From NCBI RefSeq assembly GCF_000015285.1, contig NC_008709.1, forward strand, positions 4,092,001 through 4,156,000: a DNA stretch of 64,000 bases, given 5' to 3'. Below the pieces are notes generated by a model. The model worked only from the letters and a program-made list of their open reading frames with translations. It was not told the DNA's origin and did no database searches. Source of the stretch: Psychromonas ingrahamii 37 (GTDB lineage: Bacteria > Pseudomonadota > Gammaproteobacteria > Enterobacterales > Psychromonadaceae). Of the stretch, positions 29,735 to 30,812 are shown in pieces (position 1 is the stretch's first letter; each line of letters starts with the position of its first letter). A program made the position numbers and the translations under genes.

Positions 29735-29812
29735 ATATACATCGGATTACTATAAAAAAAAGCTCATGGGGCCAGTTTATATAATCAAGGTTATGCGCTT
29801 GCAATTGAACTG
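29735..29812 (-). pseudogene. Highly decayed tRNA-Gly copy 0
   Basis: Only fragments remain: aagctcatgg, atcaaggttatgcgct and caattgaact align to the T arm, anticodon arm and D arm of the other copies. The acceptor stem is lost. Confidence 0.4.
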
Positions 29813-29894
29813 AAAAAATAGATATAAATGACAAACACAGAAATATTACTGATTGAAGTTTTATTTTTTGGGGGAGTGGAACAGGAAAGTAATT

Positions 29895-29980
29895 TGGAGC
29901 GCTACATGAGACTAAAAAATATTTCATGACCCCGGCGATTATTGGTAAAGGTAGTACTCTACCAACTGAACTAAAAACAG
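29895..29980 (-). pseudogene. Decayed tRNA-Gly copy 1
   Basis: It retains the CCA-end complement tggagcg, ctcta and ccaactgaact of the D arm. The T loop is replaced by an A-run, the anticodon arm is disrupted (ggcgattattggtaaaggt) and the 5' acceptor strand is missing. Confidence 0.6.
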
Positions 29981-30051
29981 CTATAAATAACAAATATTAC
30001 TGAGTGAATTTTTAAATTTGGTAAGTTTAAAACAGGCAAAAGAAGTGAATT

Positions 30052-30138
30052 TGGAGCGCTACACGAAACTAAAAAACACATCATGACCCTGGCTATTAGT
30101 GGTCAAGGTCGTGCTCTAGCAACTGAACTATAAATAGC
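30052..30138 (-). pseudogene. Decayed tRNA-Gly copy 2
   Basis: Same decay pattern as copy 1: tggagcgctacacgaaacta, then ggctattagtggtcaaggtc and ctagcaactgaacta. It has no matching 5' acceptor strand, so it cannot fold as a tRNA. Confidence 0.6.
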
Positions 30139-30216
30139 TACTTACAGAAAATATAGAAATATTACGGGCTGAATTTTTACGTTTTGGGGGATTGGAACGA
30201 TAAAGGTAAGTGGATT

Positions 30217-30303
30217 TGGAGCGGTACACGAGACTAAAAAACAGCTCATGACCCCGGCTCTTATTGGTCAAGGTTGCGCTCTACCAACTGAGTTATAACT
30301 AGC
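30217..30303 (-). pseudogene. Decayed tRNA-Gly copy 3
   Basis: Retains tggagcggtacacgagacta and ctctaccaactgag almost intact. The T loop and anticodon arm are altered as in the other decayed copies, and the 5' end reads aactagct in place of the gtaccgc complement. Confidence 0.65.
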
Positions 30304-30373
30304 TATAAATATAGAAATATTACTAACTGGAATTTTATTTTTGGGGAGCTTAAAACAAGAAAGGCAGTGAATT

Positions 30374-30457
30374 TGGAGCGGTACACGAGACTAAAAGAAT
30401 CTCATGACCCCGGCTATTCTTGGTCAAGGTCGTGCTATGGCAATTGAACTAAAAAAC
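30374..30457 (-). pseudogene. Decayed tRNA-Gly copy 4
   Basis: Begins tggagcggtacacgagacta as in the intact genes, then shows the A-run, ggctattcttggtcaaggtc, and a damaged D arm (tatggcaattgaact). It directly precedes the intact genes. Confidence 0.65.
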
Positions 30458-30508
30458 ATAAAGGTTAAACGCAGGAAATTTTGGAAGTTCGAAACCGGAA
30501 AAGTAATT

Positions 30509-30584
30509 TGGAGCGGTACACGAGACTCGAACTCGTGACCCCGACCTTGGCAAGGTCGTGCTCTACCAACTGAGCTAGTACCGC
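30509..30584 (-). tRNA. tRNA-Gly(GCC), copy 1
   Basis: The 76-base cloverleaf, including encoded CCA, reads gcggtac...gtaccgctcca on the minus strand, with D-arm agctcagttggtagagc and anticodon loop cttgccaag (anticodon GCC). The T arm gttcgagtc is intact. It is last of the three when read in the direction of transcription. Confidence 0.97.
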
Positions 30585-30617
30585 ATCAAATATTACTTTT
30601 ACTTCTTAAAAAGAAGT

Positions 30618-30693
30618 TGGAGCGGTACACGAGACTCGAACTCGTGACCCCGACCTTGGCAAGGTCGTGCTCTACCAACTGAGCTAGTACCGC
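30618..30693 (-). tRNA. tRNA-Gly(GCC), copy 2
   Basis: Identical in sequence to the first copy over 76 bases and separated from it by a 33-base AT-rich spacer. Probably processed from one precursor with its neighbours. Confidence 0.97.
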
Positions 30694-30736
30694 ATCACAT
30701 TTTAATAAGCATTAATTTTTCTTATTAAAGAAAAAT

Positions 30737-30812
30737 TGGAGCGGTACACGAGACTCGAACTCGTGACCCCGACCTTGGCAAGGTCGTGCTCTACCAACTG
30801 AGCTAGTACCGC
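30737..30812 (-). tRNA. tRNA-Gly(GCC), copy 3
   Basis: Third identical 76-base gene and the first in transcription order. The trio beside orn corresponds to glyVXY in E. coli, supporting conserved synteny. Confidence 0.97.

Follow-up and report, generated by a model that had tools for sequence, protein, structure and literature searches.

What the sequence lying behind a set of tRNA genes represents, whether the debris of surplus copies or something the cell has kept, is a question raised by the tRNA-Gly locus of Psychromonas ingrahamii 37. The genome is a single contig of 4,559,598 bases, and the window analyzed here is a 64,000-nucleotide stretch of it. In this window, three tRNA-Gly(GCC) genes were located on the minus strand by ARAGORN and Rfam: the first transcribed at 30737..30812, the second at 30618..30693, and the last functional one at 30509..30584. 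Each is 76 nt long, and the three are identical, as a sequence-only reading of this DNA had stated. Their upstream neighbor is orn (30992..31531, minus strand), encoding oligoribonuclease and identified by its Pfam RNase_T domain, its relatives, and synteny with E. coli; the order of orn followed by tRNA-Gly genes matches that of orn-glyVXY in E. coli, and every one of the closest named relatives at this locus belongs to Psychromonas. In the P. ingrahamii genome paper, tRNA genes appear solely as a count of 86 (PMC2405808).

The same reading had the three genes preceded by five decayed copies. Decayed copies are indeed present, but they precede the genes on the plus strand only; the genes being on the minus strand, the copies come after them in the transcript. 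Four units adjoin one another there, all on the minus strand: U3 (30374..30508, 135 bp), U4 (30217..30373, 157 bp), U5 (30052..30216, 165 bp), and U6 (29895..30051, 157 bp), terminating in CTCCA at 30374, 30217, 30052, and 29895, respectively. A terminal remnant on the same strand, U7 (about 29735..29894), completes the series. Tandem Repeats Finder returned periods of 157, 165, and 322 across 29839-30455. Local alignments of U3-U6 with tRNA-Gly scored 81, 84, 68, and 68, against shuffle maxima of 26-34 (1000 shuffles), and begin at tRNA position 8, meaning that the 5′ acceptor strand is gone. All four have an anticodon arm expanded by a TAA insert and a T-run in the T-loop, the latter described earlier, on the opposite strand, as an A-run in the T arm. 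Alignment of the units bore out every shared change that the earlier reading had named: this run, the expanded anticodon arm, the lost 5′ acceptor strand, and the common spacer. A complete cloverleaf with a closed acceptor stem was recovered by ARAGORN and Rfam for the three intact genes only, and for no unit. The length of the T-run differs between units, so no reading frame is kept, and the possibility of a coding unit was rejected.

Of the five copies claimed, four thus carry a CCA end and exceed their shuffles, while the fifth, U7, is an older remnant with a decayed core and a lost CCA end; taken alone it scores 24 against a shuffle maximum of 25. It is upheld as a copy by its spacer, which is kept and resembles those of the other units, and by its pairing, as a 1:1 ortholog with branch support of 100/99, with the final unit of strain MB-3u-54. 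According to the unit tree, the array is older than the split between P. ingrahamii and MB-3u-54, its closest strain, and the MB_d and MB_e units are a recent duplication; both results bear out the earlier reading that a dead unit was itself multiplied. Among the intact units of the two strains, core identity is 0.83-0.97 and spacer identity 0.57-0.94. The two CCA-less remnants have cores 0.57-0.63 identical to those of other units, with spacers still at 0.56-0.85. Judged by these identities, decay is restrained in the intact units.

The picture of a local graveyard did not survive comparison. A 61-position sequence model of the core gives most units 53-73 bits (U4 is the best match, at 72.9 bits) and no live tRNA-Gly gene more than 37.5 bits. 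Eleven of the 24 Psychromonas genomes contain units scoring above 50 bits, and a search of 296 genomes from 99 genera of the order gave matches in Psychromonas only. In total, 35 units from twelve genomes could be aligned. These were collected by similarity, so that units without a core would escape, although the loci were also read by eye and few such units were seen. Copy number varies from up to seven units in MB-3u-54 to none in the relatives G002 and G022, which have three intact tRNA-Gly genes. Within P. ingrahamii, 10 of the 33 scanned tRNA operons carry decayed cognate copies that outscore every non-cognate tRNA (fMet, Gly, Asp, Lys, Asn, three with Pro, Phe/Thr, and one Met/Leu/Gln), which makes such copies a genome-wide habit. 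A duplicated Gly-Cys-Leu tRNA cluster in another genome (G015; L013 1130-1650) has a decayed Gly unit between its second Gly gene and Cys, so the same unit is present in the other tRNA-Gly operon as well.

This arrangement has a precedent. tRNA-linked repeats (TLRs) were first described in 1978, and E. coli has 22 of them at ten loci, with a function known only for the three in rRNA operons, RrA/B/F (PMC8144298). Their defining mark is that the last 19 nt of a unit match the 3′ end of the tRNA (PMC8144298). A test for this mark, which recovered tyrTV of E. coli as a positive control, found a strict match in U3 and U4 (19/19), an approximate one in U5 and U6 (17/19), and none remaining in U7. 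The location agrees too, TLRs lying in tRNA or rRNA operons at one to five per locus and the four units plus remnant lying behind the tRNA-Gly genes. The Rfam RtT model (RF00391) matched nothing in this genome or in 14 other Psychromonas genomes, while the E. coli control was positive. With the 3′-end mark present and the RtT model unmatched, the array belongs to the TLR kind by anatomy and not to the RtT sequence family; so defined, it is a genus-wide Psychromonas member of a pattern already known from E. coli. Apart from tRNA, Rfam gave just a YrlA match that covered two tRNA genes and stayed under the threshold; it was rejected. The TLRs of E. coli, among them the tyrT repeats/RttR, have a similar build: a tRNA operon locus holds one to five tandem repeats, roughly 100-180 bp long, and every repeat finishes with the 3′ end of the upstream tRNA in copy (PMC8144298). 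In contrast, the Psychromonas units belong to another tRNA, lack similarity to the E. coli units by Rfam RtT, keep more recognizable tRNA (D arm to CCA), and have a derived core common to species of one genus. E. coli glyVXY has no TLR, unlike the tRNA-Gly operon of Psychromonas.

No intrinsic terminator (GC-rich hairpin plus U-run) was found on either strand in 28950-30520, a search that reaches from the last tRNA to the next same-strand gene; none separates the genes from the array. The same signature was detected in the Pro and Phe units of this genome, which consist of tandem tRNA 3′ ends joined to intrinsic terminators. Three same-strand genes lie downstream of the array (24643-29092), coding for a long protein that resembles diaminopimelate epimerase, an MFS transporter, and a protein of 530 aa that has no Pfam match.

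The spacers of units past the last tRNA, that of U3 included, are C-rich and G-poor, in one clade often with 6-10 C to 0 G, and C>G bubbles of 70 nt accompany the units, reaching 36% C to 10% G in U5. C>G bubbles are the hallmark of rut sites, although C>G skew predicts Rho efficiency in vivo weakly (PMC9160355). In being C-rich, G-poor, and weakly structured, and in lacking an intrinsic terminator, the array resembles Rho-dependent terminators (PMC9160355); Rho dependence of the Psychromonas spacers is a prediction from their composition. The bias depends on position. Mean skew, (C-G)/(C+G), is -0.05 in in-operon spacers (n=20) vs. +0.40 in units (n=31; p=0.0015), and inner units are G>C in each of the five genomes possessing them, completely separated from the first unit past the last tRNA (one-sided p=0.001); these p values treat the data as more independent than they are, because inner units are orthologous between species. 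Across the tRNA operons of the genome, tails without an early intrinsic terminator have a skew of 0.23 (n=17) vs. 0.04 in tails with one (n=16; p=0.015), and the terminator-less tails are also more C>G than in-operon spacers (-0.12; p=7e-6) and than the tails of coding sequences in the window (0.03; p=0.011). P. antarctica departs from the pattern in that its first unit past the last tRNA is not C>G; a later unit is.

Folding differs with position as well. Three of five in-operon units, from three species, fold tightly (z -3.4 to -4.1) as cloverleaf-like RNAs, and hairpins stand in place of the D arm in the units between tRNA genes. Apart from GLG-1, terminal units have folds close to those of shuffles.

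A similar polarity was found at the E. coli loci that were read, where end units are C-rich (tyrTV) or terminator-bearing (serX) and inner units are not. In tyrTV, the end units have C19:G7-8 and the inner unit C11:G17. tyrT is a classical Rho-dependent site. The inner units of the arg TLRs are G>C; their last unit, contrary to the pattern, is itself C13:G14, and a C-rich stretch (15 C and no G) comes only behind it. Each serX TLR has an intrinsic terminator, giving a repeated tRNA 3′ end plus terminator like that of the Pro and Phe units here. RrA, RrB, and RrF, small RNAs of the E. coli rRNA operons, are also TLR-type sequences behind a stable-RNA gene and between or near terminators; they are transcribed and bind Hfq and CsrA (PMC8144298).

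Taken together, the C-rich terminal spacers, the lack of an intrinsic terminator, the skews of operon tails, and the polarity of the E. coli TLRs suggest a reading that we consider evenly poised between right and wrong: the array may be a tandemly duplicated "terminator plus tRNA 3′ end" TLR, forming an iterated and probably Rho-dependent termination zone. The C-rich spacers have the look of transcription stop signals in series, not of simple junk. A segment made up of the transcribed spacer that follows a tRNA-Gly gene and a decayed copy bearing the 3′ end of that gene would have been duplicated in tandem. Each C-rich, G-poor, weakly folded spacer would then load Rho in the manner of a rut site, and the tRNA-derived core would provide pausing and a site for trimming RNA 3′ ends. 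Units situated between functional tRNA genes would have to avoid terminating; in these the C>G bias is reversed and hairpins take the place of the D arm. Transcription of the array, loading of Rho and termination within it, and 3′-end trimming at the core are what we infer on this reading. Relatives without units (e.g., G002) have C>G tails regardless; units are therefore not required for such a tail, and would reinforce termination and not create it.

The main alternative to a termination zone is neutral birth and death, whereby surplus tandem tRNA copies decay and are recopied by unequal exchange and by gene conversion with live genes, without any function. This account, which we regard as a tentative possibility, accommodates the differences in copy number, unit length, and spacer between species, the several relatives with intact genes and no adjoining units, the recent duplication of MB_d/MB_e, and the many operons holding decayed copies. 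It also fits the tracking of the host's own tRNA by the unit 3′ end, which reads GTAACGC in RZ5 and CTCATG in P. antarctica; conversion with live genes can explain both this and the tRNA-like columns of the core. The derived columns are harder to reconcile with it. Spacers are similar within species and dissimilar between clades, and when the ingrahamii clade is compared with the RZ5/SP041/SA13A clade, the fourfold sites of orn are 0.25-0.43 identical, near saturation. Across this same distance, tRNA-like core columns are 0.88 identical, columns unlike tRNA are still 0.62 identical, and the TAA insert and T-run are nearly invariant. Because these derived columns have been kept despite saturation at orn, conversion with live tRNA genes cannot account for them. 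Neutral turnover is further opposed by the tie between spacer composition and operon position, and by decay of the core in the CCA-less remnant and not in other units.

Termination by itself does not explain the conserved derived core. For this reason, and given the C>G tails of unit-less relatives, a small-RNA role is kept as a rival. The sequence-only reading had suggested a tRNA-like decoy or a processed small RNA, and such a use is possible; as the main account of the array, with the units a source of a tRNA-derived fragment, sponge, or decoy and the conserved core its active part, it seems to us improbable. The core, derived positions included, is conserved over 11 genomes, its U-run is located in a loop, three species have in-operon units with the cloverleaf-like folds described above, and E. 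coli offers precedents in RrA/B/F and 3′ETS-leuZ (PMC8144298). The latter, from glyW-cysT-leuZ, is comparable in arising as a side product of a tRNA transcript with the potential to act in trans, but it is a single trailer and not a tRNA copy, and its sponge function is demonstrated, that of the Psychromonas units hypothetical. Against a small RNA, about half of the genus has no units, and the terminal cores lack a convincing common fold: RNAalifold yielded one weak helix, and single folds were near shuffles except for GLG-1. Covariation in the cloverleaf-like in-operon units was not above shuffles (pair counting, four sequences), and a structured model of the in-operon units added no clear new members. 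The evidence points rather to a termination role of the spacers than to use as a decoy or small RNA. A further proposal, to which we give a guarded and less than even credence, is that selection might have kept the derived core (an anticodon arm expanded by TAA, a loop with a U-run, and the tRNA 3′ end) as a functional RNA specific to the genus and built from a dead tRNA-Gly. It would be a small RNA released by processing, or else the site of pausing and of the 3′ end in a TLR-based terminator system that Psychromonas and Enterobacteria evolved separately. TLRs in general would in that case be a class coded by position, rich in C or equipped with terminators at the ends of operons and G-rich and structured inside them.

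Mobile elements that insert at the 3′ ends of tRNA genes can leave tRNA fragments out of place as scars, and the fragments here do retain the tRNA 3′ end in the manner of att sites, but this origin is very improbable for tandem units of 85-178 bp with no coding content, no integrase among the examined neighboring genes, no dispersed copies in the genome, and the same decayed unit recurring in the same operon across species. Neither integrases nor pairs of empty and filled sites were seen at the locus in sister strains, and a dispersed mobile element was rejected, as only live tRNA-Gly genes match outside the locus.

Psychromonas supplies a comparative TLR series: 11 genomes share one derived unit, which stands within the operon as well as behind it, and whose spacers turn over completely as a short core persists. 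With this series, the question of TLR function becomes a directly testable claim, that end units terminate and inner units do not. Were the array neutral, the series would be a clean record of tandem tRNA gene death and recopying.

Several other tRNA operons carry related elements. Behind tRNA-Phe (L140), at least two tandem intrinsic-terminator-like hairpins, each joined to a piece of tRNA 3′ end, lie within 350 nt, and five tandem hairpins of the intrinsic-terminator type follow tRNA-Ser(TGA) within 350 nt (L156). Four tRNA-Asn genes (L148 466-1501; G000:C1:1180465-1181501) have spacers with tandem 5′ tRNA-Asn fragments and strong folding (z -3.5 to -4.9). At L148 2467-3366 (G000:C1:1182466-1183365), seven near-identical tRNA-Met(CAT) genes form a 122-bp tandem array, with one decayed copy behind them that keeps 18/19 nt of the tRNA 3′ end. 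The tRNA-Asp and tRNA-Lys operons (L142, L144) have decayed Asp and Lys copies in their spacers and behind the last gene, and two full-length decayed Asp copies have a common insert. Behind tRNA-Pro in L160 (3502-3578, reverse strand), the sequence CAGTCCTTAGCTCAGCGAGATAGAGCAACG resembles a decayed copy of a different tRNA, with a score of 54 for the non-cognate and 20 for the cognate tRNA. Lastly, a second tRNA-Gly-derived element, with the 5′ part of the tRNA kept and the 3′ part lost, lies before the first gene of tRNA-Gly operons (L004 ~1405-1500, G000:C1 near 1488632-1488727; L024 ~3713-3806; L032 ~3709-3812); it forms a strong hairpin here (z -4.7), with z of -0.7 and +0.2 in other genomes.
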